IMG/VR virus record: IMGVR_UViG_3300025828_000111
Location: 1-30,943 of that record
Strand: one strand, 5' to 3'
DNA from: a virus
Length of the DNA: 30,943 bases
Under the pieces are notes generated by a model. That model saw nothing but the letters and a program-made list of their open reading frames with translations, was not told the origin of the DNA and did no database searches. Every line of letters starts with the position of its first letter. The stretch's first letter is position 1. A program made the translations under genes and the position numbers. Positions 4,640 to 30,887 of the stretch are shown piece by piece.

Positions 4640-4642
4640 CTT

Positions 4643-4786: not shown

Positions 4787-4947
4787 AGAACAGAAGCCAC
4801 GTAAAGGACTACTTTATGTCACAGGAAGAAGTAGCCAAAGCGTTAAACATGACACGTTCAGAAGTTCAACAAACGGAATGCACAGCATTGAAGAAGTTAA
4901 AACGATCAGGTAAGCTCAGGAGATACGTAGGAGCTAAGGAGAACTAA
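4783..4947 (+). CDS. Sigma-70 region 4-like helix-turn-helix protein
   Basis: The 54-residue frame starts at TTG 4783, 5 nt after a strong TGGAGG (4772-4777), and overlaps the previous TGA. An ATG at 4816 is the alternative start (43 residues). The core MSQEEVAKALNMTRSEVQQ then TECTALKKLKR matches the layout of sigma factor region 4.2: SQEEVA-x-x-L, turn, T/S-R-x-x-V-x-Q-x-E, then ALKKL. Region 4.2 reads the -35 box and contacts the beta-flap of RNA polymerase. No sigma region 2 is present, so it cannot be a complete sigma factor. It might redirect or modulate host polymerase, or simply be a small DNA-binding regulator. Confidence 0.62.
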   Translation: MKNRSHVKDYFMSQEEVAKALNMTRSEVQQTECTALKKLKRSGKLRRYVGAKEN

Positions 4948-4949
4948 AG

Positions 4950-5204
4950 ATGGCGAGAGAACTAGTGGACATCTGGCAGGACGACTATGACAACATGGTG
5001 GAAGGCAAAGGCATCTATCGGGACTACGAGAGAGATCCTGAAGAGGAGCCGGACTTTGACGCTATGGACACGACAGTAACTAATTTACTGCTAACCACTG
5101 AGGAACTAAACCAGGAACACCAGAGGCAACTAGAGAGAATGCAACAGTTAGCCGACGCAATTAAACACTGGAGATACTTAACAGGGAGAATTAACAATGG
5201 TTGA
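4950..5204 (+). CDS. Hypothetical acidic protein with coiled-coil C-terminus
   Basis: Not recognised. The 84 residues begin with an acidic half (DIWQDDYDNMVEG, then DPEEEPDFDAMD). A long helix with heptad-like spacing follows (EELNQEHQRQLERMQQLADAIKHW), likely to dimerise. The start ATG has AAGGAG about 8 nt upstream, the clearest ribosome site of the local cluster. The end overlaps the next gene by 8 nt. Small acidic early phage proteins sometimes mimic DNA or inhibit host enzymes; there is no specific evidence for that here. Confidence 0.65.
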   Translation: MARELVDIWQDDYDNMVEGKGIYRDYERDPEEEPDFDAMDTTVTNLLLTTEELNQEHQRQLERMQQLADAIKHWRYLTGRINNG

Positions 5205-5394
5205 ACATATGCTGCCACCAGATCCTACAGACTACTTTAGTGCTGCAGAAATGGATTACATGATGGCTATGATTGAGGACTATGAAGTTGAAATGTTTAG
5301 ACTTCAGGTGAAACAAAGGCTGAAAGAGATGGACAGGAGCGACCTAGAGCGCAACATGTTGGACATCTACGGAGACGACTGGAAAAACATATGA
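5197..5394 (+). CDS. Hypothetical acidic helical protein, 65 residues
   Basis: Not recognised. The start lies within the end of the previous gene (8-nt overlap) and its stop overlaps the next start as ATGA. It is Met-rich and acidic, with predicted helices EMDYMMAMIEDYEVEMFRL and VKQRLKEMDRSDLERNML. There are no cysteines or membrane segments. It is supported by tight packing between two neighbouring frames rather than by similarity. Confidence 0.6.
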   Translation: MVEHMLPPDPTDYFSAAEMDYMMAMIEDYEVEMFRLQVKQRLKEMDRSDLERNMLDIYGDDWKNI

Positions 5395-5579
5395 GATGTA
5401 AAGCATGTGATCGAATATTGGAAGAAAAAGAATTGTTAAAGAAAGACAACCAAGGGAACTTTATTGATCTATGCAACAACTGCTTATTTTCTTCTATAGA
5501 TACTAATGTAGACAGCATTGGTACTATTACTGAGGATTTATTCTTGACAAATGATGAGGACTATGATACCCTCTACTAA
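5391..5579 (+). CDS. Small zinc-ribbon-like protein
   Basis: The 62 residues open with CKAC (Cys3, Cys6) and have CNNC at 28-31, a CxxC-x21-CxxC layout able to hold one zinc ion as a small ribbon or knuckle. The remainder is acidic and unstructured-looking (TEDLFLTNDEDYDTLY). Similar tiny zinc proteins are frequent in early phage operons and usually bind protein or nucleic acid. The ATGA overlap with the previous gene fixes the start. It is the last gene before the repeat-bearing gap at 5580-5718. Confidence 0.68.
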   Translation: MRCKACDRILEEKELLKKDNQGNFIDLCNNCLFSSIDTNVDSIGTITEDLFLTNDEDYDTLY

Positions 5580-5718
5580 AGTAGTACCTATGTAGTACCT
5601 TAGAAGTAAACAGAAGTAGTTAAACATTAGTAGTAAACAAAAGTAGTAAACAAAAGTAGTAAACAAAAGTAGTAAACAACATTAGTACTTCAGTAGTACA
5701 ACAGGAGATAACTTAAGT
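5580..5718. repeat. Iteron-like 13-bp tandem repeats in an AT-rich gap
   Basis: Four head-to-tail copies of AGTAGTAAACAAA occupy 5629-5680; the last base differs in the fourth copy. Degenerate copies precede them (AGAAGTAAACAG and AAGTAGTTAAACATT, about 5602-5628). The array is flanked by GTAGTACC twice (about 5581-5599) and TAGTACTTCAGTAGTAC on the right. There are no spacers, so it is not a CRISPR. No gene fits. The gap splits the early gene run upstream of the replication genes, as expected for an origin or a regulator array, but only the repeats are directly seen. Confidence 0.7.
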
Positions 5719-5973
5719 ATGATTAGAGACGAGTTTAGTGTGTACGAAGTGACCGGAGGTGACTACTCCATTTATCGACTAGGCTTCATTGAGGCCAGAG
5801 AGATCGCTAACGAGATAATGAGGCGTGACCCTTATGGTGGTATACCTTTTGTTTTTAAGCTTGAGATGGACGCTAGAGAAGCTCCTAGCGACACTGTGAA
5901 AATCAGTAGGTCCGACTTTGAAGTATTCCTGGACAAAGTTAGTGATCCATTTCCAACACCAGAGGACGATTAA
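5719..5973 (+). CDS. Hypothetical protein, 84 residues
   Basis: Not recognised. It is the first gene after the 13-bp repeats, with AGGAG about 11 nt before the ATG. The sequence mixes strands and helices (FSVYEVTGGDYSIYRLGFIE, then AREIANEIMRRDPYGGIPFVF) and ends acidic (DPFPTPEDD). The layout looks like a small folded domain rather than a disordered peptide. The next gene begins 1 nt after its stop. Confidence 0.62.
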   Translation: MIRDEFSVYEVTGGDYSIYRLGFIEAREIANEIMRRDPYGGIPFVFKLEMDAREAPSDTVKISRSDFEVFLDKVSDPFPTPEDD

Positions 5974-5974
5974 C

Positions 5975-6163
5975 ATGACTTACAAACAACTATTGGAAGT
6001 TTTACAGCGTATGCCTGAGTGTTATCTTGACCAACAAGTGACTTTCAGTTCTGGAGAAGAAGACGAGCAAGTAATCAATGCAGCTAGAATTTCCTACTTT
6101 ACGTACCTTGTGAACGATCCTAGTATGCCAACAGAAGGCAACTTTGTGTTGGCTTTTGACTAA
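5975..6163 (+). CDS. Hypothetical small protein, 62 residues
   Basis: The frame is open from 5918, but the ATG at 5975 is preferred: it directly follows the previous stop and has AGAGGA upstream. The sequence MTYKQLLEVLQRMPECYLDQ, then VTFSSGEEDEQVINAARISY and a final NFVLAFD, resembles small phage proteins that start with T-x-x-x-LL-x-x-L-x-x-L-x-x-DQ-V. I recall that pattern in many marine phages, with no function known. It is the last gene before the replication-module promoter, whose -35 box lies in its final codons. Confidence 0.62.
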   Translation: MTYKQLLEVLQRMPECYLDQQVTFSSGEEDEQVINAARISYFTYLVNDPSMPTEGNFVLAFD

Positions 6164-6178
6164 ATGATGTGGTATAAT
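6149..6178 (+). promoter_or_regulatory. Extended -10 promoter for the replication module
   Basis: TTGGCT (6149-6154, 4 of 6), 18-bp spacer, perfect TATAAT (6173-6178), preceded by TGG (6170-6172), which makes an extended -10. The predicted start near 6185 gives a leader of about 50 nt to the SSB ATG at 6236. A second rightward promoter here would let replication genes be expressed independently of the early run. Confidence 0.65.
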
Positions 6179-6235
6179 ATTAGTATGGCTAGAGAGGATC
6201 TAGTCGCAACCCAAGTAGAAACGGAGATTATTCCA

Positions 6236-6607
6236 ATGGCAACAATCGAAGGCATTTGTAACTTTAGCAACCTAACTGAGCATGACGTGTACAACGGTCA
6301 GGACACCGGCCAATTCTCTATGACTATCACTGTGTCAGAGGACGACGCCAGTGAATTAGCGGCGCTAGGTGTAAAGATTAAGGACTACCAAGGTGCTAAG
6401 CAGCGTAAGTTTAAGTCAAAGTACGACGTACGGACATTTGACGCTGAAGGTAATCCTTACAGAGGTGAAGTACCTTATAACTCTAAGGTTCGCCTGAAGT
6501 ACAAGCTAGGTCAGCCACATCCTGTACACGGTGTGTCTACTTACCTGGAAGCAGTAAAAGTTTTAGAAGAAGCAGAGTTGGAACTAGGAGAACTCGCAGA
6601 CTTCTAA
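6236..6607 (+). CDS. Single-stranded DNA-binding protein (T7 gp2.5-like)
   Basis: The upstream frame opens at 6164, but the ATG at 6236 is chosen: GGAG lies 9 nt before it, the promoter at 6149-6178 would start transcription after 6164, and the conserved part begins at MATIEGICNFSNL. The 123 residues contain VYNGQDTGQFSMTITVSEDD and a basic strand (QGAKQRKFKSKY), typical of the OB-fold proteins that coat ssDNA in T7-like phages. The acidic tail ends in Phe (EEAELELGELADF), like the gp2.5 tail that docks on polymerase and helicase. It lies 1 nt ahead of the primase-helicase. Confidence 0.85.
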   Translation: MATIEGICNFSNLTEHDVYNGQDTGQFSMTITVSEDDASELAALGVKIKDYQGAKQRKFKSKYDVRTFDAEGNPYRGEVPYNSKVRLKYKLGQPHPVHGVSTYLEAVKVLEEAELELGELADF

Positions 6608-6608
6608 C

Positions 6609-8216
6609 ATGGCTAACTTTGTGAGACATGAAGGGTGTCCCAAGTGTAATTCTTCGGACGCCCTTGCTATTTACGACGACGGTTCTACGCATTGCTTTAG
6701 TGCCGTTTGTGATTACCATACAGGTGGAACAGGTGACATGTCCGAAGTTATACCCATTGCAAAAGCTAAGCCACTACAGATGTTTGGTACAGTGGCGGCT
6801 ATACCTAACAGAAGAATATCCAAAGAAACCTGTATGCGCTTTGGCGTTACCATTGAGTACGGCACTACAGGTGAAATAGTCAAACACTACTACCCTTACT
6901 ATGACGTAAACACAGGTGAAGTATGTGCAGCCAAAGTCAGAGAAGTCAAAACCAAAAACTTTTTTAGTAACGGAGACCCAAAGAATGCTGGGTTCTTCGG
7001 ACAACAACAGTGCAGTACTAACAAGTTCATAACAATCACGGAAGGTGAACTTGACGCCTTAGCTGTGTACGAGATGTTCAACAAGCAGTACGACGTGGTG
7101 TCACTACGTGCAGGTGCGTCCTCTGCAGCCAAGGAGATCAAGGAACAGCTAGAGTGGCTCGAAGGGTACGACCAAGTGGTACTCTGCTTTGACAATGACA
7201 AGGCCGGTGACGCTGCTCTGGAACAAGTCAAAGATCTCTTTAGCCCCAACAAGTTAAAAATAGTAAAGTTACCGTTGAAGGACGCCAGTGACATGCTCAT
7301 GGCGAACCGTGTTAAGGACTTTACGCAAGCATGGTGGAATGCAAAGGTTTACCGTCCTGACGGCATTGTTGCAGGAACTGACACATGGGACACACTGGTA
7401 CAAAAGCGCCAGGTGAAGTCCATACCTTATCCTTGGAACGGCCTCAATGAGTTAACAAGAGGACATCGGCCTTATGAGTTGGTCACGATCACTAGCGGCA
7501 GTGGTATGGGAAAGTCCCAATTTATCAGAGAAATTGAGTACGATTTACTACGCCGATGCGAAGGCAATATTGGAGTCTTGGCGCTTGAGGAAGATTTGGC
7601 CAGAACATCGCTTGGTATCATGTCGGTGGCAGCAAACAGACCCTTACACTTGGAAGAGGACACGCCAGTGGACGAGCTTCGGCCATTCTGGGAAGCCACA
7701 TTGGGAACAGGACGTTACTACTTATTTGACCATTGGGGGTCAACTTCAGCAGATAACTTGCTCGCCCGTGTTCGCTACATGGCAAAAGCACTTGACTGCC
7801 GGTACGTCGTACTGGATCACTTGTCCATCGTCGTCAGTTCCCAAGAGTCAGGAGACGAGAGAAAAGCCATTGACGAGATCATGACACGCCTACGCACACT
7901 CGTAGCTGAAACAGGCATCTGCCTATTCCTCGTGTCACACTTACGCAGGTCACAAGGCAAGGCACACGAGGACGGAGCACAGATCAGCTTAGGTGAACTA
8001 CGTGGTTCACAAGCTATCGCACAGTTGTCAGACATTGTCATTGGTATGGAACGTGACCAGCAGAACGAAAACGAAGACGTAAGAAACACTACTACTGTTC
8101 GTGTCCTCAAGAATAGGTACACAGGTGAAACTGGACCCGCTTGTTGGCTACAGTACGACAAACAAACAGGGAGGTTACAGGAAGTCGCAAATCCTAATAC
8201 AAACGAGGACTTTTAA
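6609..8216 (+). CDS. Bifunctional primase-helicase (T7 gp4-like)
   Basis: The 535 residues follow the T7 gp4 plan. An N-terminal zinc domain has Cys10, Cys13, Cys29 and Cys34. A TOPRIM primase core has EGELDA with Glu145 and FDND with Asp195 and Asp197. The RecA-type helicase has Walker A SGSGMGKS (296-303), Walker B VVLDH (Asp403), the sensor motif FLVSHLRR (440-447) and a likely arginine finger in NRYTGETG (Arg504). The acidic end TNEDF recalls the gp4 tail that contacts polymerase. It unwinds the fork as a hexamer and lays down primers for the polymerase. All key residues appear intact. The TAA overlaps the next ATG by one base. Confidence 0.95.
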   Translation: MANFVRHEGCPKCNSSDALAIYDDGSTHCFSAVCDYHTGGTGDMSEVIPIAKAKPLQMFGTVAAIPNRRISKETCMRFGVTIEYGTTGEIVKHYYPYYDVNTGEVCAAKVREVKTKNFFSNGDPKNAGFFGQQQCSTNKFITITEGELDALAVYEMFNKQYDVVSLRAGASSAAKEIKEQLEWLEGYDQVVLCFDNDKAGDAALEQVKDLFSPNKLKIVKLPLKDASDMLMANRVKDFTQAWWNAKVYRPDGIVAGTDTWDTLVQKRQVKSIPYPWNGLNELTRGHRPYELVTITSGSGMGKSQFIREIEYDLLRRCEGNIGVLALEEDLARTSLGIMSVAANRPLHLEEDTPVDELRPFWEATLGTGRYYLFDHWGSTSADNLLARVRYMAKALDCRYVVLDHLSIVVSSQESGDERKAIDEIMTRLRTLVAETGICLFLVSHLRRSQGKAHEDGAQISLGELRGSQAIAQLSDIVIGMERDQQNENEDVRNTTTVRVLKNRYTGETGPACWLQYDKQTGRLQEVANPNTNEDF

Positions 8217-17728: not shown

Positions 17729-18580
17729 TTAACCTATACCTAGTAGATCAAACAGTGGGTTAACAATCTCAGTAACACCGCCACCCATGCCAACTTGCTG
17801 TGGTGTCAACAGTCCTGACAGGAGACCAGTACCTAGTTGACCATAGAGGTTAGCTTGTCCAAGACCTGAACCAAGCAGTGCCTCAAGTCCACCCATTTGT
17901 GCTTCACCAAACAAACCAGCGCCAGTCAGCTGACCACGTTGCGCCATTTGTGCAGCTGGCATACCTGCTTGTAGGACGTTCAATGCTTGCGCTTGAGGTG
18001 TATAACCAGCACCCATAAACTGACCACCTAGCTGTGCCTGCTGCATCTGCTCAGCTTGCGCCTGTTGCATTGCACTTAGCATCGCCTGGTTACGTGCTTC
18101 TTCCTGAGCCTTAGCCAAAGCAAACTGCTCAGGAGCGCCTCCGAACTGCGCCGTACGCAAACCTAAGCGTCCTTGTGCCGCTAGACGCTCTTCAGTAGCA
18201 AGCCTCTGACGTTCCTCTTCAGGACGCTGTGCTTCCCTAATGCGTTCAAACACAGCCTGCTCACGTGCTTGCGTAGGTTGCATAGCCTGTTGATAAAACT
18301 GACCCGCACCTCCGAACATCTGCTGTTGAAATGCTTGTTCTTGAGGAGACAAACCTACAGTAAGACCGCCTTGAGGAGTAGTAGTTAATGCTCCTCCTGT
18401 TCCTGTCGTTACTGTGAAGGGCATAAAGCGTGTTTGCTCTACACCAGTAGTAGCAATGTCGCCTGCTTCCCTTCTTGCTTGTTCACCTATGTCGCCAAGG
18501 CGTTGATAAGCTTTACCTGTAAGTAAACCACCAGCGCCTAAAGCACCTAAACCCAATAATTGTCTTAATGTGTCGCTCAT
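17729..18580 (-). CDS. Ala/Gln/Gly-rich virion protein (candidate ejection protein)
   Basis: The 283-residue protein has a hydrophobic, glycine-rich N-terminus (LLGLGALGAGGLLTG, residues 8-22), a long Gln/Ala/Met-rich helical middle (EEARNQAMLSAMQQAQAEQM) and a Gly/Leu-rich C-terminus (GSGLGQANLYGQLGTGLL). Low-complexity, small-residue sequence with a hydrophobic start is common in podovirus ejection proteins that leave the head with the DNA. Its ATG overlaps the stop of the beta-propeller tail gene by 4 nt. The next gene starts 13 nt after its stop. No enzymatic motif is seen. It could instead be a scaffold-like or tail-lumen protein. Confidence 0.6.
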   Translation of the reverse strand: MSDTLRQLLGLGALGAGGLLTGKAYQRLGDIGEQARREAGDIATTGVEQTRFMPFTVTTGTGGALTTTPQGGLTVGLSPQEQAFQQQMFGGAGQFYQQAMQPTQAREQAVFERIREAQRPEEERQRLATEERLAAQGRLGLRTAQFGGAPEQFALAKAQEEARNQAMLSAMQQAQAEQMQQAQLGGQFMGAGYTPQAQALNVLQAGMPAAQMAQRGQLTGAGLFGEAQMGGLEALLGSGLGQANLYGQLGTGLLSGLLTPQQVGMGGGVTEIVNPLFDLLGIG

Positions 18581-20085
18581 AGTAATTTACCCATTAAAGC
18601 CATTACGTTGATCTCCTGTAGTGACAGCTGTGAACCGTCAATCTCTGCTTCTAAACCTACAACAATACTAGTTCCGTAGCCTGTTGCATTTAAACTTCTT
18701 TGGTTGGTTAAAGCGCCACCTGTAAATTCCACAGTTGTGTACTCACTCTCACCGAAGAAACCAGTAATCTGGTCTCCTACCGTAAACTCTGCTGTTGCGT
18801 ACGTGCCTTTGAAGTCGTACGCCCACTTCATAAATACTGTTGCGTTGTTCGCACCAACAAGTGTAGGCTTTAGCTTCTTCAAGATTTTGACTCTGGAACT
18901 GTCACCAAATGTCAAACTTGGGCTGTAGTACTTAAAGCGGTAGCCTAAACCGTTGTCCTGATAACCTATGTATTCGCTAATGCCTTCGGACGTGCCTATG
19001 TAAAAGTCACCATTGTCTAAACGTGTGTAGGCTGTGAAGCCTGTAGAAGGCCAACGAGTAACACGGTAAGAACCGTTCTCTGTTGTACCTCTAACGTCAA
19101 AGCAATAGGTGTTGTCCTGACCTACAAAAGTTAGTAAGTAAAAACCTTCTTCAGGACTATAAGCAGACCTAAAGAACGTGTTTTCTGTCTGCAGGGCATT
19201 AATAATGTCCTTAGTAATGTTTCCTGACAGACTACTAACAGGCATGGACTTCTGTTGTATTGTTCGTCCAAAGCTCTTCAAACCAGTGTGTGACAAAAAG
19301 ATCACGTCAGTACCAGTGTACTGCACAGTGTCCCTGTCTACGCAACCAACGCCTGCTACAGTGTCAGCCAGCGTCATTGTTGCTGGTGCTTCTGCTCCTT
19401 GGTACACCACAATGCTATGCTTACCAAAGATGATAAGGAAGCCGTTGTGTGCAGCTAATGCAACAATCTCGTCGTACCCGTCAGGCCAGACTTTGGATAT
19501 GTCAATGGACCCACTAGTACCGCCTGAGTAGTCATGGCCTATCAATAAGTCAGACCAGTAAACAGTAGAAGGACTGGTGCTAAGGCCTGTTACCCAAAGA
19601 CGACCGTAAGCGGCACAAACTTCGTTACCTTGTACAATACCAGCAGCACCAGAGACTGAGTCTAGACGCACTACGGACGTGCCGTCGTACACTAAAGGTG
19701 CATGAGAAGCTTGAAACAAGTAAGCCTTGTCGTTAAAATTAACAATCTTCCAGTTGTCCGCTGTGATCGTGTAGCTACCAGGTGTAGCGTCAGTAAGCGT
19801 AGTAGTACCTGTGAATATCTTGTTGTTGCCTACAGACAGAACTACGTTGCTACCACTACTTCTTTCAAACTCCTTTACAGCTCTAATAGAACCAGAGCCT
19901 AACGCTGTCTTGTCAGTTGTAATAACACTATGACCCTTACGTGCCGCAATACGACCACGTTTGTCAATCACAGCGTTGTCTGCTATTTCAGCAAACGACG
20001 GATCTTGTGCCAACGGCGAATCTTCGGTGTTGATACCTTTGAACGCTGGTGCTACAAGATTGATACTCTTTAGTTCTTGAGCCAT
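18577..20085 (-). CDS. Tail stabilization / tail hub protein (TTPB-like beta-propeller)
   Basis: The 502 residues open with INLVAPAFKGINTEDSPLAQ and then FAEIADNAVIDKRGRIAARKG, the standard N-terminal signature of podovirus stabilization or tail tubular B-type proteins. The middle has repeated strand blades with Tyr/Trp-rich turns (KIVNFNDKAYLFQ, GRLWVTGLSTSPSTVYWSD, NGFLIIFGKHSIVVYQG), consistent with a beta-propeller that forms the tail nozzle. It directly follows the adaptor gene with a 1-nt gap, matching the T7 gp11-gp12 and P22 gp4-gp10 order. It likely plugs the tail and contacts the fibre or ejection proteins. Confidence 0.85.
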   Translation of the reverse strand: MAQELKSINLVAPAFKGINTEDSPLAQDPSFAEIADNAVIDKRGRIAARKGHSVITTDKTALGSGSIRAVKEFERSSGSNVVLSVGNNKIFTGTTTLTDATPGSYTITADNWKIVNFNDKAYLFQASHAPLVYDGTSVVRLDSVSGAAGIVQGNEVCAAYGRLWVTGLSTSPSTVYWSDLLIGHDYSGGTSGSIDISKVWPDGYDEIVALAAHNGFLIIFGKHSIVVYQGAEAPATMTLADTVAGVGCVDRDTVQYTGTDVIFLSHTGLKSFGRTIQQKSMPVSSLSGNITKDIINALQTENTFFRSAYSPEEGFYLLTFVGQDNTYCFDVRGTTENGSYRVTRWPSTGFTAYTRLDNGDFYIGTSEGISEYIGYQDNGLGYRFKYYSPSLTFGDSSRVKILKKLKPTLVGANNATVFMKWAYDFKGTYATAEFTVGDQITGFFGESEYTTVEFTGGALTNQRSLNATGYGTSIVVGLEAEIDGSQLSLQEINVMALMGKLL

Positions 20086-20086
20086 A

Positions 20087-20734
20087 TCAGATAGTCCTAA
20101 AGTACATCTCTTCTGGATGCTTAGCTGCGTCTATTGCGATAGCGTCAGACAAGTACCTATCAGCAATACCAAAGTACTCAGCAGTAGAAGTTCCTCCTGT
20201 TTCTCCACGTTCACGAGCCAACAGAGCCACAGCTAGGTGTACCACAGGTTGTGAAGGTACTAGCAGTGAGTCCGTGTTAGCACTTAAGTCAGCCTGTCGT
20301 TTAATCACGTCAAACCGCAAGCTGTACACACCGTCTGGTGTTGGACCCACGAGTACTTGCGTGTCACCGCTGGCGTCAAGGCCGTTGTACGTGTAGTACA
20401 TAGGTGCGCCTGTAGCAGTGTTATTAATATACAGTTGCTCGTTAAACCAGTCCTTACTTTGGTACTCCATAAAGACGTTACTAGTGTCGTTAACCACACA
20501 CATAACTTTTACGTTGTCACCACAGTCCGTCAAGGAATACGTATTGTCATCAGCCGTAGTAGAAACAGTAATAGTGCTTCTCAAGGCTGACCAGTCGTTA
20601 GACTCCTCTACTAACTTTTTAGCGTCGTTAATAAAGTCACCAACCATCTTGTTATAAGTAGTGCTAGTAACCGACGTGGTTTCTTCCTCACGCAGTCTAC
20701 GTAACACGTTGTTCATAAGGTTTAAGTATGTCAT
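20087..20734 (-). CDS. Head-tail adaptor (tail tubular protein A-like)
   Basis: The 215 residues begin MTYLNLMNNVLRRLREEE, followed by FINDAKKLVEESNDWSALR. This helical start is typical of podovirus adaptors (T7 gp11, P22 gp4 type) that form a ring below the portal. The middle is stranded (NTYSLTDCGDNVKVMCVVND, QVLVGPTPDGVYSLRFDVIK) and the end is helical (ADRYLSDAIAID). The ATGA overlap (20731-20734) couples it to the preceding 1653-residue gene, and it is followed by the beta-propeller tail gene. The pair is the best marker that this block is a podovirus tail module. Confidence 0.85.
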   Translation of the reverse strand: MTYLNLMNNVLRRLREEETTSVTSTTYNKMVGDFINDAKKLVEESNDWSALRSTITVSTTADDNTYSLTDCGDNVKVMCVVNDTSNVFMEYQSKDWFNEQLYINNTATGAPMYYTYNGLDASGDTQVLVGPTPDGVYSLRFDVIKRQADLSANTDSLLVPSQPVVHLAVALLARERGETGGTSTAEYFGIADRYLSDAIAIDAAKHPEEMYFRTI

Positions 20735-23700
20735 CCGATATATTCCTTAAACAAACTGCTTGTTATTCCTATTGGACCTAATGTCTCTTCTAAAGACGCT
20801 ACGTAGTCAACTTGAGGTGCTTGACCTATTTCTTCCAAAGTAGGCAACTCGTAAGTAATGCCTGACATGAAAGGAGTGAAGTCAGTTCTTTGAGGTGCCG
20901 CTGCTGTCATCATTCCTGTACCACCAACACCAGGTCCGAAGCCGTCACCAGTTCCAGTCCCTGTTCCAGCACCTGAACCACCGCCAGTTCCAGTACCGTC
21001 TCCTACACCAGTTCCAGCACCAGTACCATCTCCTGTACCGTCTCCAGTTCCTGTAGTGTCCTTACCACGTGTTTCAGTGTCTTTACGTTCCTGCTCAGAC
21101 GACTCAAGATCCTTCTCTAGCTGTTCGTCAGCAGCGTCTTTCTGCGCTTGTTCAGCATCCTTGGCTTCTGTTTCAGCAGCTGCGTCCTTCTGAGCATTCT
21201 CGTCTTTGGTAGCTTCCTCAGCCGCTTGTTGTTCCTTAGCGGCTTCTTCAGCAGCAGCCTGTTCCTTAGCTTGCTCTTCGGCTGCTTGTTCCTTAGCGGC
21301 TTCTTCTGCTGCTACCTCCTCTTTACGAGTCTGCTCTGCTTCTTCCTTACGTGCTTCCTCAGCAGCTTCTTTATTAGCCTGTTCTGCTTCTTCCTTTTCC
21401 TGAGTCTCAGCAGCAGCTTCTTTTTCTGCTCTTTCTGCTGCAGCTTCTTCCTTTTCTTGAGTCTCAGCAGCAGCTTCCTTTTCAGCTTCCTCAGCGTCTT
21501 TAGCTTCGTCCTCAGCTTCCTTTTCTGCTGTTTCAGCTTCGGCGTCTTTCTGTGCTTCTTCTGCAGCTACTTCTTCTTTTTCTACAGTTTCAGCAGCAGC
21601 GTCCTTCTGAGTTTGCTCAGCTTCCTTGCCAGCCTCTTCAGCAGCCTGCTGTTCCTTTTCGTCCTCTTCAGCGTCCTTAGCGGCTTCCTCAGCGTCTTTT
21701 TGTTGCTCTTCAGCGTCCTTGTCAGCTTCTTCGGCAGCTACTTCTTCTTTCTCTTGGTTTTCAGCTTCTTTATCTTCAGCTTCTGCTTGAGCTTCCTTAT
21801 CTTCAGTTTCTGCCTGAGCTTCCTTATCTTCAGTTTCTGCCTGAGCTTCCTTAGCTTGTTCTTCGGCTTCCTTGTCAGCCTCTTCAGCAGCCTGTTGATC
21901 CTTAGCGTCTTGTTCAGCTTGTTGATCTTTTTCAGCCTGCTCAGCTTCTTCCTTTTGTAGTTCTTCGGCAGCTTCCTTGGCTATTTCTTCAGCTTCTTCT
22001 TTTCTAGCTTCTTCTGCCTCTTCCTTTTGCTCAGTTTCAGCTTGAGCGTCCTTCTCTGCTCTTTCTGCAGCAGCTTCTTCCTTTTCTTCGGTTTCAGCCT
22101 GAGCGTCTTTTTCTGCAGTTTCTGCATCTTTAGACTCAGTTTCTGCGTCAGCTTCCTTTCTAGCTTCCTCAGCAGCTACCTCTTCTTTTTCCTGAGTTTC
22201 AGCTTGGGCTTCCTTTTGCGTCTGCTCAGCGTCCTTCTGAGCTTCCTCAGCTGCTATCTCTTCCTTTTCCTGAGTCTCTGCCTCTTTAGTAGCTTGCTCA
22301 GCTGCTTGTTCTTCTTTAGTTTGGTTTTCGGCTTCTTTGTTAGCTTGTTCTGCAGCAGCTTCTTCCTTTTCTTGATTCTCAGCTTCTTTCTCTTGTTGCT
22401 CAGCTTGAGTTTCTTTCTCTTGGTTTTCTGCTTCTTTTTGCTGTTGTTCAGCTACGTCCTTTTCCTGAGTTTCAGCCTCAGCGTCCTTTTGAGCTTGCTC
22501 TGCAGCCTGAGCTTCCTTTTCCTCAGTCTCAGCTTCAGCATCTTTTTGAGCTTCTTCAGCGGCCTGCCTTTCTTTTTCTTCGGTTTCTGCCTGAGCTTCC
22601 TTTTGAGCTTCTTCTGCTGCCTGCTCTTCTTTCTCTTGAGTCTCAGCCTCAGCGTCCTTCTGTGCCTGCTCTGCTGCCTGTTGTTCCTTTTCTTCAGTCT
22701 CTGCCTGAGCTTCTTTTTCTACTTGTTCAGCAGCTTCGTCCTTAGCTTCCTGTTCAGCCTGACGTTCCTTTTCAGTTTCTTCGGCGTCCTTCTCAGTTTC
22801 CTCAGCTTCTTTTGCTTCAGTTTCAGCTTGACGCTCTTTCTCAACTTTTTCTGCTTCTCTTGCTTCTTTTTCTTCAGTCTCAGCCTGAGCTTCTTTTTTA
22901 GCTTCCTCAGCAGCTTGTTGTTCTTTCTCCTGAGTCTCTGCCTGAGCTTCCTTGTCCGCTCTCTCAGCAGCCTCAGCTTCTTTTTGTTGAGTCTCTGCTT
23001 GAGCTTCCTTGTCAGCGCGTTCAGCAGCTTCAGCTTCCTTCTGCTCAGTCTCAGCAGTAGCTTCCTTCTGTGCTTCCTCTGCAGCCTGTTGCTCTTTCTG
23101 TTGTGTTTCTGCGGCAGCTTCCTTCTCAGCTTCTTCGGCAGTTTCCTTGTCGGAACGCTCAGCGGCGTCCTTAGCAGCTTCAGCAGCAGCGTCCTTAGCA
23201 GCACGTTCGGCTGCAGCGTCTGCGTCCTTCTGTTGTTGCTCTGCTGCTTGAGTTTCTTTCTGTTGTCTTTCTGCTGTTTGCTCTTTTTGTGCTTCCTCTG
23301 CAGCAGCCCTTGCTTGTTCCTTCTGTATTTCTTCAGCTGTGTCGTCAGCAGTAGGAACAGTGTCAGCTAGTGGGTCGTCATCGTCAGGAGGAGCAGTAGT
23401 AGAGGCACCACCACCACCTCCGCCACCTGTTTCAGGCTCTGGTTCTGGCTCAGGCGCTTCTTCAGGAGGATCGTAGTCAGGGTCTATAAAAATTTCTGTT
23501 GGTTCGTTAGGGTCTCGTACACCAATAATGTTGCCAGATTCGTCTACGTCATTAATTTGACCGTACTCTTCACTTCTGTCGTAGTTAAAATCTATTAATA
23601 CCTGAGTGCCGTCAGTATGTATTGTGTATCCTGATTGAGCTAACGCTTCAATTAACTCTTCTTGAGTTGATACACCAAACAAACCCATCAATACTTCTTG

Positions 23701-25692
23701 GTCTGAATCAGAAAGACTAAAGAATCCGTTAGCGTCTACTCCTGTTCCAATACTTGTCATGTGATCGACAATGGAACCAATGTCTTGTTGTTCTACTGCA
23801 TTATCAATAGCAGTTTGAAAATCAGTATCTGAAGGCTGTCTAGGATCATAAGGAACCTGGCCTTCAGTTAAACCTACTAGTTGGTCTACAAGAGCAGGGT
23901 CATCTACAATATTACCTTCAGCGTCGTACCACTGACCTTCGTCTTGATAATAAGCAAGATTACCGTCAGAATCATAAATACCGTCCTGACCTAACTGAAC
24001 TTCTCCTGTTGCAATAATAGAAGCACCGTCTTCAATGTAACCGTCGTAATAATCAATAGTGCCGTCATTATTTACTACTGCAGTTCCGCCTAATTCATAT
24101 ACGTTACCGTCAGCGTCTTTATAAGTACCGTCGTTTGGATCATAAGTTACATCAACGTCTTGGCTTAAAATTCTATTGCCGTCTACGTCGGTGTAGTAAT
24201 CGTACGAACCAGGATCAACGTAACCTTCACCTATTCTGTACTCTAGTTCGTCTTCGTCTATTTCTTCTACAACATCTCCAACGCCTTCCACAATAGTTTC
24301 AAACTGTTCACGGAAGTCAGAAATGTCAGCATTCAAGCCAGTTTCTATTTGTGACAAAAAGTCTTCAATAACACTTACGTCAGGAACCCAACCTCTAAAG
24401 AACTCTTCAAGCTGGTCAACAGTTGATCCTGCCATGTCCTCTAGACTTTCTAAGTACTCACTAAACTGGTCCGAAAGACCTGCCTGAAGCATAGCTTGTG
24501 CAAGCTGCTCAGCATCAAGTTCACCACTTGTGACTAGCTGTGTTGCTGCGTTAATAACACCAGCTTGAATAACAGCGTCAGCAAACTCACTACCTGTTTC
24601 TAATGCTTGGAGTGCTTCTTGTGCAACGTCAGTGTCTAGTATTCCTCCAGTAATAGCAGACTGAATAATGCTTTCGAGACTTATGTCTACACCTTCGCCT
24701 CTTAAAATACTGGTTGTTGCTTGTGAAAGAACTGAATTAACAGCAGCAGAAACAGCAGCAGCTGTTGTACCACTTAAGCCCAGTGCTGAAGAGACAGTAG
24801 AACCGACTCCTGCACCACCAAGAGCAGCACCAGCAGCTATCTGAATACCTAACTTTAGGTAATCACCAGGACTCATATGGTCGTCTACTTTGTAAGTTTT
24901 TACATAAGCAGAGCCGTTCCATTCGTACTTGTCGCCGTCACTATTGTAGATTGTAGAACCTACACCGTACTTAGCTAGTAACGCTTGGTTTTCTTCAGAG
25001 TTAACCCAACGATCATAAGCAGAAGACTGCTCTTGCATTCGCTGACCATAGGCTTCCGTATAAACGTCTTGGTCATCATCTGTGTACTGAGTAAGATCCT
25101 CGCCTTCAAGAATCATTAACTCATCTTCAGTTAGTGAACCAGTGTATTCGTCCCAGTTACCTACATCGTAGTCACCAGCTTGAATCAACTCTTCTCGCTC
25201 AGTCATGTAAGCAAGATAGTTATCAAAGTCACCGAAGGCTTGCTGAAGCATTCTAGAGCCTTCGTCATTGAAGTACTCACGTAGTTCAGCTTCAGTTACT
25301 TGAGTAGCGTCACCTCTTGCATACAGTGCATTGGGGTTAGCATCACCTGTTTCGACACCTCTAAAGAATGTAAAGGTAGTTACACCTTCAGGCTCAGGCT
25401 CAGGTTCTGGTTCTGGTACAGGTGCTGGTGCAGGAGCAGGAGTGTCAGTCCCTGTTTCTTCTGTTGCTCCGCCTACAGGTCCGCCACTTGGATCAAACGG
25501 TCCAGTTTCACCAGGTTGTCTCTTTGTTGGGTCACTGGTTGTACCAGTAAGCATCCCTGATTTTGTCGGAGGTGCAGGCTTGCTTTGTACAGGCTGAGAC
25601 GTAATAGTAGCTCCTAGTTGAGGATTAGCTGCTAAGTACCTAACGGCATCATAGATACTAGGAAACTGTTGTGTACCTACATAATACGCCAT
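20731..25692 (-). CDS. Giant virion protein with about 760-residue charged helix
   Basis: This 1653-residue protein has a multi-part layout. Residues 1-110 are Pro-rich (PAPAPAPVPEPEPEPEPE). About 110-270 is acidic. A membrane-like Ala/Gly/Ser segment lies near 275-328 (LGIQIAAGAALGGAGVGS). About 505-600 has repeated DGNVYE/DGIYDSDGN/WYDAEGN turns. A Pro/Gly linker lies near 750-775. Residues 783-1543 are Lys/Glu/Ala/Gln repeats without visible Pro or aromatics. A Gly-Thr-Asp tract follows near 1545-1600 and ends in a short folded tail (ITYELPTLEEIGQ). The gene fills the slot between the holin and the adaptor, overlapping the latter by 4 nt. Position suggests a virion protein, perhaps a fibre-like or ejection component. 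The helix resembles TolA domain II in composition only. Function is unknown. Confidence 0.75.
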   Translation of the reverse strand: MAYYVGTQQFPSIYDAVRYLAANPQLGATITSQPVQSKPAPPTKSGMLTGTTSDPTKRQPGETGPFDPSGGPVGGATEETGTDTPAPAPAPVPEPEPEPEPEGVTTFTFFRGVETGDANPNALYARGDATQVTEAELREYFNDEGSRMLQQAFGDFDNYLAYMTEREELIQAGDYDVGNWDEYTGSLTEDELMILEGEDLTQYTDDDQDVYTEAYGQRMQEQSSAYDRWVNSEENQALLAKYGVGSTIYNSDGDKYEWNGSAYVKTYKVDDHMSPGDYLKLGIQIAAGAALGGAGVGSTVSSALGLSGTTAAAVSAAVNSVLSQATTSILRGEGVDISLESIIQSAITGGILDTDVAQEALQALETGSEFADAVIQAGVINAATQLVTSGELDAEQLAQAMLQAGLSDQFSEYLESLEDMAGSTVDQLEEFFRGWVPDVSVIEDFLSQIETGLNADISDFREQFETIVEGVGDVVEEIDEDELEYRIGEGYVDPGSYDYYTDVDGNRILSQDVDVTYDPNDGTYKDADGNVYELGGTAVVNNDGTIDYYDGYIEDGASIIATGEVQLGQDGIYDSDGNLAYYQDEGQWYDAEGNIVDDPALVDQLVGLTEGQVPYDPRQPSDTDFQTAIDNAVEQQDIGSIVDHMTSIGTGVDANGFFSLSDSDQEVLMGLFGVSTQEELIEALAQSGYTIHTDGTQVLIDFNYDRSEEYGQINDVDESGNIIGVRDPNEPTEIFIDPDYDPPEEAPEPEPEPETGGGGGGGASTTAPPDDDDPLADTVPTADDTAEEIQKEQARAAAEEAQKEQTAERQQKETQAAEQQQKDADAAAERAAKDAAAEAAKDAAERSDKETAEEAEKEAAAETQQKEQQAAEEAQKEATAETEQKEAEAAERADKEAQAETQQKEAEAAERADKEAQAETQEKEQQAAEEAKKEAQAETEEKEAREAEKVEKERQAETEAKEAEETEKDAEETEKERQAEQEAKDEAAEQVEKEAQAETEEKEQQAAEQAQKDAEAETQEKEEQAAEEAQKEAQAETEEKERQAAEEAQKDAEAETEEKEAQAAEQAQKDAEAETQEKDVAEQQQKEAENQEKETQAEQQEKEAENQEKEEAAAEQANKEAENQTKEEQAAEQATKEAETQEKEEIAAEEAQKDAEQTQKEAQAETQEKEEVAAEEARKEADAETESKDAETAEKDAQAETEEKEEAAAERAEKDAQAETEQKEEAEEARKEEAEEIAKEAAEELQKEEAEQAEKDQQAEQDAKDQQAAEEADKEAEEQAKEAQAETEDKEAQAETEDKEAQAEAEDKEAENQEKEEVAAEEADKDAEEQQKDAEEAAKDAEEDEKEQQAAEEAGKEAEQTQKDAAAETVEKEEVAAEEAQKDAEAETAEKEAEDEAKDAEEAEKEAAAETQEKEEAAAERAEKEAAAETQEKEEAEQANKEAAEEARKEEAEQTRKEEVAAEEAAKEQAAEEQAKEQAAAEEAAKEQQAAEEATKDENAQKDAAAETEAKDAEQAQKDAADEQLEKDLESSEQERKDTETRGKDTTGTGDGTGDGTGAGTGVGDGTGTGGGSGAGTGTGTGDGFGPGVGGTGMMTAAAPQRTDFTPFMSGITYELPTLEEIGQAPQVDYVASLEETLGPIGITSSLFKEYIG
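21060..23345 (-). repeat. 57-bp / 19-residue degenerate repeat tract
   Basis: Within the 1653-residue gene, units alternate 9 and 10 residues between KE or KD pairs (KEAQAETEE, then KEQQAAEQAQ, then KDAEAETQE, then KEEQAAEEAQ), giving a 19-residue, 57-bp period. As an anchor, GCTTCC at 22595 and GCGTCC at 22652 occupy the same repeat position. Synonymous sites differ between copies while the residue pattern persists. The coding strand is purine-rich, so the plus strand reads as a long C/T-rich run. Phase slips occur toward the ends. The period of 19 over about 5 turns differs from a heptad coiled coil. Confidence 0.85.
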
Positions 25693-26091
25693 TTACTTTT
25701 CCCTTGATACGCCCTTGGTTTTTTCATAAGAGCGCATAGCGCCAAGACCAAGCATACCCATTAGTACAGGCATCATAGTCTCTAGGTCAATGAGTGGTAT
25801 AGTGACTTCAACAGCCAACAGAGCTAGTACAAAGTTAGTAAACGGTATAACCATAAAGTTACCCATCATACCCAAGACACAACACCAGCCTACTGCAGGT
25901 CTCCAACCAGAGACAAACAAGGACTTGTGTGCTGCTTCTACTTTGTTAACCTCTAGCTGTGCCTTAGCAAGCTCCTGAGCGTGTCTCTGAGCCATTGTAG
26001 CGACTTCATGGGCCAGCTTAGCCTTCTGGTCCTTGTCCTCTACAAACTTGTCTAGAAGCCCTGTAACAGGCCCTATGAGCGACTCAATCAT
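25693..26091 (-). CDS. Holin, GTA-type three-helix family
   Basis: The 132 residues start with a charged amphipathic helix (about 10-56, DQKAKLAHEVATMAQRHAQE). The family core FVSGWRPAVGWCCVLGM follows, then hydrophobic segments at about 66-95 and 104-119 and a basic tail (SYEKTKGVSREK). The F-x-x-GWRP-x-x-GW block is the hallmark of the GTA_holin_3TM family (named from memory). Holins open the inner membrane at the programmed time, here to release the M15 peptidase encoded about 23 kb away on the map. The ATG overlaps the stop of the next membrane-protein gene by 4 nt, and the 1653-residue gene follows without a gap. Confidence 0.82.
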   Translation of the reverse strand: MIESLIGPVTGLLDKFVEDKDQKAKLAHEVATMAQRHAQELAKAQLEVNKVEAAHKSLFVSGWRPAVGWCCVLGMMGNFMVIPFTNFVLALLAVEVTIPLIDLETMMPVLMGMLGLGAMRSYEKTKGVSREK

Positions 26092-27371: not shown

Positions 27372-30300
27372 TTAAGACCTCTTTATAGTTACTGCTTGCA
27401 TACGAACATTTGAAGTGGTTGTAGCGCCTGCTAATGCTATTGTCCCGCCAGAATTTGTTGCGTTTACAGTTAACCCGTTATTTGCAATTTGCGTAGTTAT
27501 AACAACTGAGCTTTCATCTTGTTTAAATAGAGCCGCAATTATATATTTTGTTGTGCCTGTCTCATAAGCATAAAGAAAACCAGTTTGTGGCTCACCATTT
27601 GTTATAGTTGAAAAAATCCCAGACCCACCGTTGTTATCAACAACTTTCCATCTTTGAAATGCGTTGTTTGCATGAATACCGCCTGACAGGTAGAGGTCTT
27701 TGAAGCGGTAATTACTTTGACCTAAATCAACTAGACCGTCGTTGGAATTTAAGCCATCACTATCACAAAGAGTAATGGCTGACCCGCCAGTTCCAAAACG
27801 CAGGAAACAATCTTGTGTGTCAGCTTTTCCTATTAATAAATCACTTGTACCAACACTAATACTACCGACTGTGGAGCCGTCTTTGCGGAAGTCTACAATG
27901 GCTCCGTCTGTGCTTGTTCTATTAAAATAAGCAACCGTTCCGCCATATCTAGCTACATTTAAATAACCGCCTGAGCCTCTGTTGTAAACAAAACCGTTAT
28001 CTGCCGTAGAGCCTGCATTGTTATTCTGTGTGTCTGTGTCAGTAGTACCAACCAGCAAGTTGCCACTAGAGTCGATACGCATGCGTTCTGTATCGTTAGT
28101 ACCGAACAGCAAAGCATGATTAGACGTTGTTTTAAGGATTGTGCCGCCACTAATAGAACGATAAACGCCTGTATGTGTTCCGTCTGTAAGCCTGTAACCG
28201 TCTCCAGTAGAGCCTGATATATCTACCTTGTCATTTGGACTGCTAGTACCAATACCAACGTTACCGCTTCCCGTAATAGACAGCCTTTCATCAGTAGTTG
28301 CATCGCCAGCTACAGAACCTAAAAAGAAACCCATCCTTCTATTTGCTTGAGCGGTGTTGTTAAACGACATGATGTACATATCTTGCTGATTGCCAGAGAA
28401 CTTAATCGCGTTATAAACACTATTCCCTGAACCAGCATTTCCAAGATTTAACGTACTGTTTGAATTAGCGGCAGTTACGTCTGTAGAGGTATGGGTTGTT
28501 TGTACTTGAAGACGTGTGTCGGGATTGCTAGTGCCGATACCAACATTCCCACTAGAGTCGATACGCATGCGTTCATCAGTAGTGCTAAAAACAAGATTGG
28601 CTGATGTTGACCCGCTTGCATTAAGTACAACATCTCTTGTGCTTTCATTAACAGATAAAAATAGACCAGGGTTATTAGTTCCACCAATATACCTAAAAGC
28701 GGCTCCTGCTGACCCATCTGAAGGCATTTGAGTATGTAAACGGTAAAGTGGACTGCTAGTGCCGATACCAACATTCCCAGAAGCATCGATACGCATGGCT
28801 TCTGTGGCGCTAGTAAAGAAGCGCATAAAGTTACTTGAATGGTTATACCCAATGTAACCTTGATATTGCTGTGTAGTAGTAGTGCCGTCAGCAAACGCAA
28901 GTACACCATTGTTGGCTGTGCCGCTGTAAATAGTGATTCCCTGCTCGCCTGAACCAGAGCCTACAACTAACGTGTCAGCGCCTACCTGATTGAAACTAGA
29001 TGGACTGCTCGTACCAATACCCAACGACTCCGCAGAACTATCCCAGAAGAACTTCGGAGTCGTACCCGTGTCTTCGTAGAAGCTGATGTCGTTGTTTGCC
29101 TCTATAACAGCGGCTTTATTGCTTCCAGTATAAAACTCAATTTTTCCTGCACTTCCGGTGCTATTGTATGACTTAAACCACATATTAGACGCGTTACCTA
29201 CGCCTATGGTTCCTTCGTATGAAGAGTCGTCATCGTAAAGTTTTAGCTTGTCGCCGTTAGATGCAGTTGAAAACGCCGCTGGTTGTCCGTATGAGCCTGA
29301 GCCAGTTGCAGAAAAAAACAACTCTCCGCTTGCACCATCAACAGTCAAACCACCAGCGGTCACTGTGCCAGACAAAAATAGGTTTTTAAATTCTAAGCCA
29401 GATGCGCCTAAACTAACGTTGTTATTGTATGTTGAGCCATCTGCGCCTACTGGTACGATTCTACTGTTATCAAAATCAAACTGCAGTCCAAGACCGTCAG
29501 CAGTAGCAATAAACAACCTATCTGTCGCTACGCTACCTAAAGTACCTAAAGCACCGATATCATAACTGTCAGCAACTACTGAACCAGTGACGTCAATGCC
29601 TGTGGAGGTTGTGGCTAGCTTAGAGGCGCTTCCATACGACAAAGTAACAGCATTTGCACCAGTTAAAATTAAGTTTTGCCCTGAACCGTTTTGTACGGCA
29701 ACTCCAGTGTCTTGACCGCCAAGAATTAAATAGCCTGTTCCAGCATCCTTGATATAACTATTGTTCGAATCATGATAAATCTGTAGATCAGAGCTAGCAC
29801 CAAAGATAGCCTTGTCGTTGTCGCCAAAGGTCACATTGGCAGAAGTCGCAAGACCTGCAAAGGTTGGAGTGTCAGTAGTAGCAACACCTTGGTTCAAAGC
29901 CTTGACAGCAGTAATGTTAGTCAACTCTGAGTCCATCAATGCGCCAGCAGCAGTAACATTAGTTGTGTCCGTTACGTCTGCTAAAGCTTCGATACCGTCA
30001 AGTTTGCTGTGGTCAGCATCGGTAAATACATTGGAGTCTGTAGCGGCTTCTACTGCGGCTCTGATCTCAGCATTGGTTTGGTCACCTGTAGCACCTGCTT
30101 CTATCCCATCAAGCTTACTGTGATCTGCATCAGTAAAGACGTTAGAGTCTGTAGCGGCTTCAACCAGTGTACGAATCTCTGCGGCTGTTTGGTCAGCAGT
30201 AGCACCAGCTTCAATACCGTCTAGCTTAGAGCCATCAGTAGCAACGTCACGTCCGTCTACAGTACCGTTTACAGTAATGTTGCCTGTAGCAGAAACAGTA

Positions 30301-30887
30301 GTAGCAGAGACAGCGGCAGGAGTAGTGCCACCAATGACAGTACCGTCGATAGTACCGCCGTCGATGTCTGGAGTGTTTACGTCAGGAGACGTGAGAGTCT
30401 TATTGGTAAGTGTCTGAGTCCCTGTTAGCGTTGCAACGGTAGAGTCAATAGCAAAGGTAACAGCATTACCTGAGCCAGACGTATCAATACCAGTGCCGCC
30501 AGTAAACGTCATGGTCTCAGTGTCTAGGTCAATGTTTAACGCACCACCAGTGTCAGCTTGGAAGTCTAGATCTTGAGCTTGGAGTTCTGTGGTTACAGCG
30601 TCAACGTAAGCTTTTACGGACTGCTGTGTAGGAACCAGGTTAGCACTGTTGGACGACATATCGTCTTCATCAACGAATGCAGTAATGCTAATAGTCCCGT
30701 CGGAAATAGTTTCGTAGGTCAACGTGCCTGTAAAGGTCGGACCTGCAATATCTGCTTTGGTTGCGATAGCAGTAGAGATCGCGTCAAACTCTGTTTCAAA
30801 CTCAGTTCCGCGAATGATCTTACCAGAGTCGCCTGTCGGTAATGAGTCTTTAGCCCCAAAGTCTGTAGTCTTAGTGTAGTTCGACAT
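27372..30887 (-). CDS. Tail fibre protein
   Basis: The 1171-residue fibre begins MSNYTKTTDFGAKDSLPTGD, a probable virion-attachment end, then FETEFDAISTAIATK. The shaft contains 37-residue repeats (DGIEAGATADQTAAEIR...). It also has the typical DLQIYHDSNNSYIKDAGTGY block of marine phage fibres and at least five MRIDSSGNVGIGTSSP-type repeats, likely trimeric beta structure. The C-terminus (TTKYIIAALFKQDESSVVIT, then VRMQAVTIKRS) is strand-rich and probably the receptor-binding tip. No S74 chaperone motif was seen. It is the first complete late gene after the terminator at the right edge, with AGGA upstream of its ATG. Confidence 0.88.
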   Translation of the reverse strand: MSNYTKTTDFGAKDSLPTGDSGKIIRGTEFETEFDAISTAIATKADIAGPTFTGTLTYETISDGTISITAFVDEDDMSSNSANLVPTQQSVKAYVDAVTTELQAQDLDFQADTGGALNIDLDTETMTFTGGTGIDTSGSGNAVTFAIDSTVATLTGTQTLTNKTLTSPDVNTPDIDGGTIDGTVIGGTTPAAVSATTVSATGNITVNGTVDGRDVATDGSKLDGIEAGATADQTAAEIRTLVEAATDSNVFTDADHSKLDGIEAGATGDQTNAEIRAAVEAATDSNVFTDADHSKLDGIEALADVTDTTNVTAAGALMDSELTNITAVKALNQGVATTDTPTFAGLATSANVTFGDNDKAIFGASSDLQIYHDSNNSYIKDAGTGYLILGGQDTGVAVQNGSGQNLILTGANAVTLSYGSASKLATTSTGIDVTGSVVADSYDIGALGTLGSVATDRLFIATADGLGLQFDFDNSRIVPVGADGSTYNNNVSLGASGLEFKNLFLSGTVTAGGLTVDGASGELFFSATGSGSYGQPAAFSTASNGDKLKLYDDDSSYEGTIGVGNASNMWFKSYNSTGSAGKIEFYTGSNKAAVIEANNDISFYEDTGTTPKFFWDSSAESLGIGTSSPSSFNQVGADTLVVGSGSGEQGITIYSGTANNGVLAFADGTTTTQQYQGYIGYNHSSNFMRFFTSATEAMRIDASGNVGIGTSSPLYRLHTQMPSDGSAGAAFRYIGGTNNPGLFLSVNESTRDVVLNASGSTSANLVFSTTDERMRIDSSGNVGIGTSNPDTRLQVQTTHTSTDVTAANSNSTLNLGNAGSGNSVYNAIKFSGNQQDMYIMSFNNTAQANRRMGFFLGSVAGDATTDERLSITGSGNVGIGTSSPNDKVDISGSTGDGYRLTDGTHTGVYRSISGGTILKTTSNHALLFGTNDTERMRIDSSGNLLVGTTDTDTQNNNAGSTADNGFVYNRGSGGYLNVARYGGTVAYFNRTSTDGAIVDFRKDGSTVGSISVGTSDLLIGKADTQDCFLRFGTGGSAITLCDSDGLNSNDGLVDLGQSNYRFKDLYLSGGIHANNAFQRWKVVDNNGGSGIFSTITNGEPQTGFLYAYETGTTKYIIAALFKQDESSVVITTQIANNGLTVNATNSGGTIALAGATTTSNVRMQAVTIKRS
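29990..30235 (-). repeat. Tandem 37-residue (111-bp) repeats in the fibre shaft
   Basis: Units start at SKLDGIEAGATADQ, SKLDGIEAGATGDQ and SKLDGIEALADVTD. The first two run through an EIR-x-x-VEAATDSNVFTDADH segment that is nearly identical between copies. The DNA copies are offset by 111 bp (near 29994, 30105 and 30216) and are similar at the nucleotide level, so they are candidates for recombinational length change. Confidence 0.8.

Follow-up and report, generated by a model that had tools for sequence, protein, structure and literature searches.

The giant modular protein encoded directly before the neck adaptor of a probably short-tailed, marine and uncultivated phage contains a rod, which is a length-variable array under strong purifying selection on its amino acids. 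The true unit of this array is the heptapeptide A-E-x-x-x-K-[E/D], which recurs every 7-10 residues with linkers of mostly 0-3 residues. In related genes at the same place before the adaptor, other modules (collagen-like, Pro-rich or other repeats) are found. The leading reading, tentatively favoured at just under even probability and placed ahead of an ejected tape and a lysine-specific array, is that the rod acts as a spacer or tether docked at the neck. The features are collected in Table 1; the window refers to the whole stretch of DNA analysed, the 30,943 nucleotides of IMG/VR record IMGVR_UViG_3300025828_000111.

Table 1. Features of the rod gene and its neighbours (window positions; residues are those of the rod protein)
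Feature	Position	Strand	Basis
Giant modular protein gene, 1653 aa (codons)	20731..25692	-	ORF call; 65 relatives in viral_contigs
Rod, residues 781-1542 (762 aa), 86 K[E/D] units, 82 strict A-E-x-x-x-K-[E/D]	21067..23352	-	Composition, motif count, AlphaFold2
N-terminal region, residues 1-270	24883..25692	-	AlphaFold2
Hydrophobic Ala/Gly-rich helical region, residues 275-480	24253..24870	-	Low-confidence model
Strand-containing region, YDSDGN-like repeats, residues 490-730	23503..24225	-	Sequence and model
Gly/Thr-rich linker and conserved C-terminal segment (...DFTPFMSGITYELP...SSLFKEYIG), residues 1543-1653	20734..21066	-	
N-terminal GMLT peptide, residues 46-49	25546..25557	-	
C-terminal GMMT peptide, residues 1593-1596	20905..20916	-	
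Neck adaptor (Pfam SU10_adaptor), next gene downstream of the rod gene	20087..20734	-	Pfam match
Head-closure/tail-hub-like protein	18577..20085	-	Profile match
Holin (GTA_holin_3TM / phrog_3427), next gene upstream of the rod gene	25693..26091	-	Profile matches

The heptapeptide unit and the selection on it

A preliminary description of the window had reported a charged, periodic segment of about 760 residues without proline or aromatic residues, and this segment is real. The rod is composed of E 244, A 205, Q 97, K 88, D 43, T 41, R 18, V 8, N 7, S 4, I 3, L 3 and G 1, with zero Pro, Phe, Trp, Tyr or His; its net charge is -181 (-0.24 per residue, fraction charged 0.52), and V, I and L account for only 14 of the 762 residues. 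In the autocorrelation of residue identity (60 lags, z from 300 shuffles), lag 19 is the highest (z = 12.6), ahead of lags 9 (7.0), 57 (6.6) and 38 (5.7), while lags 7, 11 and 15 are flat (0.7, -1.5 and -0.6). The 19-residue period, described earlier as neither heptad nor hendecad, is thus confirmed, and it is the outcome of 9+10 spacing with no 19-mer unit.

When the rod is aligned on its lysines, A is found at K-5 in 97% and E at K-4 in 99%, and 86 of the 88 lysines are followed by E or D. The strict copies of the block number 82 against a mean of 2.9 and a maximum of 10 in 2000 shuffles. The 85 spacings between K[E/D] units are of 9 (30), 10 (24), 7 (17) and 8 (11) residues, with one each of 6, 11 and 12; the alternation of 9- and 10-residue blocks noted previously therefore holds in parts of the rod, but elsewhere spacings of 7 and 8 are frequent. 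The block is absent from the 21 other proteins of the window (7187 aa), in which 51 of 399 lysines precede D or E; in residues 1-780 of the rod protein itself the count is 1 of 9.

Tandem Repeats Finder lists 57-bp arrays in the rod, as the preliminary description had it, yet the codons are scrambled and the unit is the seven-residue motif. At lag 19, codons for the same residue are identical at a frequency of 0.53, where 0.55 is expected. Such chance-level identity implies that the DNA copies are old and synonymously scrambled, with no ongoing homogenisation; together with the high dS, it speaks against a recent tandem repeat or slippage. In the comparison of the window with the relative L005, motif positions have a dN/dS of 0.008 (dS 0.42), the remaining rod positions 0.092 (dS 0.39) and residues 1-780 a value of 0.083; the alignment of repeats can favour the pairing of motif on motif, however the L005 rod is 96% identical. 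Likewise, the comparison with L010 gives 0.011 for the motif, where dS is near saturation, 0.21 for other rod positions and 0.32 for residues 1-780. A motif dN/dS of about 0.01 along with randomised synonymous codons indicates that the protein pattern is under selection. GCA and GAG are overused at the A and E of the motif relative to the rest of the rod (Fisher p 0.02 and 0.001). A reading of the indels among relatives as whole repeat units was set aside, as gaps of 19, 19, 9, 37 and 8 residues occur in the same alignment with gaps of 1, 2, 3, 6, 18 and 25.

Outside the rod, the AlphaFold2 model of the N-terminal region is fairly confident at residues 1-36 and 103-270 (except 199-204), and residues 37-102 form a Pro-rich linker of low confidence; structure searches with this model (mean pLDDT 54.7) returned nothing at E <= 0.001. 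The hydrophobic region has diverged in the relatives L018 and L019, with 52% identity over residues 270-480 versus 95-97% in the rod. The protein is mosaic: identity between the window and L018 is 97% in the rod and 65% in residues 1-780.

Relatives and the gene position before the adaptor

The rod gene starts directly after the holin stop codon, and its end overlaps the start of the adaptor by 4 bases (ATGA), so the earlier placement of the protein among structural (tail-module) genes is supported. The head-closure/tail-hub-like protein has distant homologues (23-27% identity) in seven phage records, including the Pelagibacter phages HTVC103P, HTVC104P and HTVC115P. Its best PHROG is phrog_5107 'amidase', a doubtful label, and it also matches virion structural and head-closure families. 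The window ends inside the portal gene, without head genes. A 37-kb relative, G001, carries terminase, portal, a scaffold-like protein (E 4.8e-5), the major head protein, fibre, holin, a relative of the rod gene, adaptor, hub and three further late genes. No tail-tube or terminator family was found among the late genes scanned, several of which match no family; a short tail is therefore likely. A QueC-like gene (phrog_1550; L080:11899-12585) lies between the portal and the major head protein in G001.

A search with residues 1-781 found 65 relatives in viral_contigs, all of them uncultivated contigs, and zero matches among 50,697 phage records, where the rod and C-terminus likewise gave zero. 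A long charged run is present in 17 of the 64 relative proteins extracted (some of the others are incomplete), all within L003-L023; in those of the others that were scanned or read completely, the run is replaced by Pro-rich, collagen-like or other repeats. A DNA pattern of three blocks detected 51 stretches on 50 viral_contigs contigs, of which 33 are new with respect to the protein search. A cellular source of the array was rejected, as genome_contigs yielded only three single matches, in unrelated proteins. On 30 of the 33 new contigs, the adaptor start overlaps the rod ORF stop by the same 4 bases as in the window, and on L109 and L116, which both end short of the adaptor, the holin lies directly upstream of the rod ORF; the rod gene thus adjoins the adaptor, or the holin where the contig ends first, on 32 of 33. 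The exception is L124, whose ORF at 4290-6851 joins the rod and N-terminal region to scaffold-like sequence followed by the head genes of another phage. L124 is a probable chimeric assembly; it was left out of the lysine counts and complete-protein lists below and kept in the counts of array length, L105 and long-run R and K. A family-wide slot between holin and adaptor was rejected, since a matching holin is directly upstream on 8 of the 33 new contigs, many being too short and some reaching upstream without a holin.

The position was also sampled from the adaptor, with 483 loci found, the best 80 kept and 8 of these too short upstream. By simple thresholds, the 72 scorable upstream ORFs comprise 29 AExxxK rods, 14 Pro-rich, 3 collagen-like and 26 other proteins, with one Pro-rich protein having 6 blocks and one of the 'other' being a rod fragment. 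The occurrence of varied rod types in the same gene of relatives is suggestive of a long tether in the virion. Of 40 relatives, 2 have N-terminal regions that match tail-fibre and collagen-like minor-tail PHROGs.

The longest array, in L113, has 1149 residues and 134 K[D/E] (contour 172 nm), and many rod proteins have two arrays with a domain between them. In 23 complete proteins, some of them closely related, the rod residues sum to 726 on average (outliers 432, 461 and 1150), with a CV of 0.18 against 0.38 for the rest of the protein. These are 23 of 27 proteins, as L011 and L102 derive from a single contig that breaks within the rod, and L004 and L134 are near-identical to L003 and L115. 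The rod ORF is interrupted inside or near the rod in the L011/L102 contig and in G003 (L013/L154); in G003, helicase and fibre ORFs are split too, which suggests sequencing or assembly errors.

Both ends of the protein often carry the peptide GM[LFM]. Among 80 distinct, though not all distant, complete proteins, 64 have it within residues 2-62, 74 within their last 70 residues and 60 at both ends, whatever the module type, whereas only 23 of 1433 internal 60-residue windows contain it. Likewise, all 72 scorable ORFs from the best 80 of 483 adaptor loci have it in their last 70 residues. Of the 21 other window proteins, only the holin carries it there. This peptide is a possible shared docking or processing signal.

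Probable helical character and the lysine rule

AlphaFold2, run on the rod with 12 sequences and 893 residues modelled, predicts five long helices at residues 782-964, 973-1182, 1190-1294, 1303-1366 and 1380-1545, with pLDDT of 41-87 by ten-residue block; 435 of the 893 residues lie at 70-90 and none above. AlphaFold2 can predict helix for charged disorder. The rod is probably largely helical, and the helix-type composition proposed earlier is supported. A search of solved structures with the rod gave none at 0.001.

The rods resemble the single alpha-helix (SAH or ER/K) domains of myosins and the de novo AEEEKKK peptides, which are likewise charged, contain Ala and hardly any large apolar residues, and have a seven-residue block with E-K pairs at i,i+4 (PMC5347031). 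The rod is a charged segment without a heptad or hendecad apolar seam, as in an SAH, with some apolar power at 3.75-3.9 remaining. SAHs are marked by dense E-K and E-R pairs of either orientation at i,i+3 and i,i+4. The rods lack this feature: across 23 clusters of rods (7014 aa), acid-to-base pairs at +4 (E before K type) are enriched (803 vs 388 expected), base-to-acid pairs (K before E type) are depleted (292 vs 386 expected), and lag 3 is at chance. The depleted orientation is the more stabilising one (PMC5347031). Lys and Arg together at the pairing sites, usual in SAHs and not strictly required, are also not found. Some Arg raises the stability of single helices, Arg-rich designed helices aggregated, and a Lys-only designed peptide also forms an SAH (PMC5347031). 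Hence the charge pattern fits a helix, but one tuned unlike known single helices or the standard ER/K helix: it has Lys only at the pairing site, is strongly acidic and has blocks mostly 0-3 residues apart. Rigid helical linkers of the (EAAAK)n type are used in protein engineering and share with the rod an A-E-x-x-x-K block with an E-K(+4) pair, whereas the rod is natural, irregularly spaced and has a near-obligatory E or D after K. TolA domain II, like the rod, is a long Ala/Glu/Lys-rich helix; the TolA-like rod suggested in the preliminary description is not borne out, as the rod protein has no Pfam or NCBIfam match to TolA, and the rod has a different motif and is strongly acidic.

A heptad or hendecad coiled coil fits poorly and was rejected on the periodicity. 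Ala is flat modulo 7 and shows no peak at 3.5 residues per turn. At 3.67 it likewise has no peak when windows of 76 residues are used, whereas with 38-residue windows it lies slightly over the shuffle 95% point (1.4 vs 1.3). The apolar set (A, V, I, L, M, T) has above-chance power at 3.75-3.9, reaching 3.4 at 3.8 against a shuffle 95% point of 1.4 in 76-residue windows (Ala alone 2.0 vs 1.5), and slight power at 3.67 in 38-residue windows. Given this apolar power, the rods may associate loosely in a right-handed manner. The contour of the 762 residues is 114 nm. Single helices are typically 40 to about 200 residues long with a persistence length of about 15 nm (PMC5347031), from which an r.m.s. 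end-to-end distance of about 55 nm was computed. It had been argued that a rod of about 110 nm must fold back, bundle or project, or else span the host envelope during ejection; with an expected span of about 55 nm, folding back or bundling is not forced.

The lysine of the block is nearly invariant. Across 79 distinct rod segments, which total 23,765 aa and share ancestry, the position flanked by AExxx and D/E holds K in 2448 of 2647 cases and R in 6, although these segments contain 477 Arg; the counts over 23 rod clusters agree (K 710, R no more than 3). After AExxxK (2452), the next residue is E in 1563, D in 885 and another in 4, and position -4 of K[DE] is E in 2580, A in 132 (the AExxK form) and D in 6. 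Similarly, in long rod runs R precedes D/E in 25 of 469 cases and K in 2833 of 2979. Codon usage was ruled out as the source of Arg avoidance, as AGA and AGG are common in the phage. The distant relative L105 (12287 bases) has at the same gene position (residues 144-603) repeats of K-D-G-E type, in which 53 of 54 K are followed by D or E; with 38 Gly/Pro in 460 residues, this segment cannot be one helix. The choice of Lys over Arg and the K-[E/D] rule are the strongest hint of a function beyond spacing.

Possible roles of the rod protein

In the preferred reading, the rod would serve as the spacer within a large structural protein, the phage itself being probably short-tailed. The C-terminal segment would dock on the neck or tail, and the rod, largely helical, monomeric and semi-flexible, would form an acidic tether that holds the exchangeable N-terminal domain off the neck, where that domain would meet the host envelope. 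Phage tail fibres have collagen-like and coiled-coil shafts; the rod protein is similar in having rod modules in a structural protein, with collagen-like modules at the same gene position in relatives, and differs in that its C-terminus is the more conserved end and its rod is acidic and probably helical. Against a tether, the strict lysine rule exceeds the obvious needs of a spacer and survives in the L105 segment, and the more stabilising charge orientation is depleted. An internal protein, packed in the head or tail and leaving via the portal-adaptor channel, would also be compatible with the hydrophobic region and with the possible ejection genes downstream; its rod would thread the envelope like a tape, and the hydrophobic Ala/Gly helices would enter the inner membrane. 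This alternative is on the whole doubtful. The rod protein shares with podovirus ejection proteins, e.g. T7 gp14-gp16, the late operon of a probably short-tailed phage (PMC8954989), and in G007 the last late gene has a weak match to phrog_342 (internal virion protein, E 2e-5). Among seven genomes, the last late gene ends in GMLT, as in the terminal peptide of the rod protein, in G002, G003 and G005, and lacks it in the window, G001, G006 and G007. The less variable rod length in the 23 related proteins would also fit ejection, as would the whole-protein match to phrog_2335 (tape measure, E 2.9e-7) and Tape_meas_lam_C in the N-terminal regions of 5 of 40 relatives (best E 6.6e-5). However, the phrog_2335 match vanishes without the rod, residues 1-787 alone matching 0 PHROG families, and the tape-measure reading was rejected on this ground; Tape_meas_lam_C scores 17.1 bits, below its cut-off of 23. 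Moreover, the rod protein has no ejection-protein profile match and is a separate gene directly before the adaptor, L112, L115 and L117 show no such hydrophobic region on reading, the net charge of the rod would be awkward beside packed DNA, and rods reach the length and contour seen in L113. Matches to 2-oxoglutarate oxygenase, demethylase and other profiles (16 sequences, E 0.04-0.65) were taken as chance.

In another alternative, each A-E-x(2,3)-K-[E/D] block would be a recognition or modification site, with dozens per chain and the helix merely a carrier. The near-absence of Arg despite frequent AGA/AGG codons and the K[D/E] kept in Gly-containing L105 segments favour such an array, which is nevertheless rather unlikely: no partner or modifying enzyme was identified, spacings of 7-10 residues place the blocks all around the helix, the counts share ancestry, and, since Arg-rich designed helices aggregated (PMC5347031), Lys may on a plainer reading simply keep a very long helix soluble. 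A wider form of the idea is also unlikely, namely that the lineage evolved a lysine-specific code of up to about 130 copies per chain, with ends often bearing the same GM[LFM] docking peptide, chains that loop or bridge around the neck, and each block a site of recognition, cross-linking or modification. Collagen-like modules generally trimerise, and their presence in relatives, along with the apolar power at 3.8, would suit a thick stalk built as an oligomeric, right-handed bundle of helices (19 residues per 5 turns); this is highly improbable, as the spacings of 7 and 8 break the phase, V, I and L are scarce, and 3.8 residues per turn is beyond the usual coiled-coil range of 3.5-3.67. The least probable of all is a disordered acidic entropic brush with no helix, which the charge content and the moderate AlphaFold2 confidence would allow, and against which stand the lack of Pro, the single Gly and the strong E before K(+4) bias.

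If the tether reading is true, the rod (762 residues; 1149 in one relative) would be several times longer than the 40 to about 200 residues typical of single helices (PMC5347031), and would provide, in numerous natural variants, a single helical block on which selection has been measured. The swapping of helical, Pro-rich and collagen-like modules at the position beside the conserved adaptor amounts to a natural test of the properties required of a virion tether, and the lysine rule with the terminal GM[LFM] peptides gives specific, testable predictions of a docking partner. No account of such a phage rod was met in the literature search made here.

Repeats of other kinds are also present in the window. 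Between ORFs, at 5605-5687, a 13-bp direct repeat (AGTAAACAAAAGT) occurs in about six copies; this iteron-like array is possibly a replication or regulatory site. Similarly, 111-bp repeats are found at 29985-30228 within the tail-fibre gene (27372-30887).
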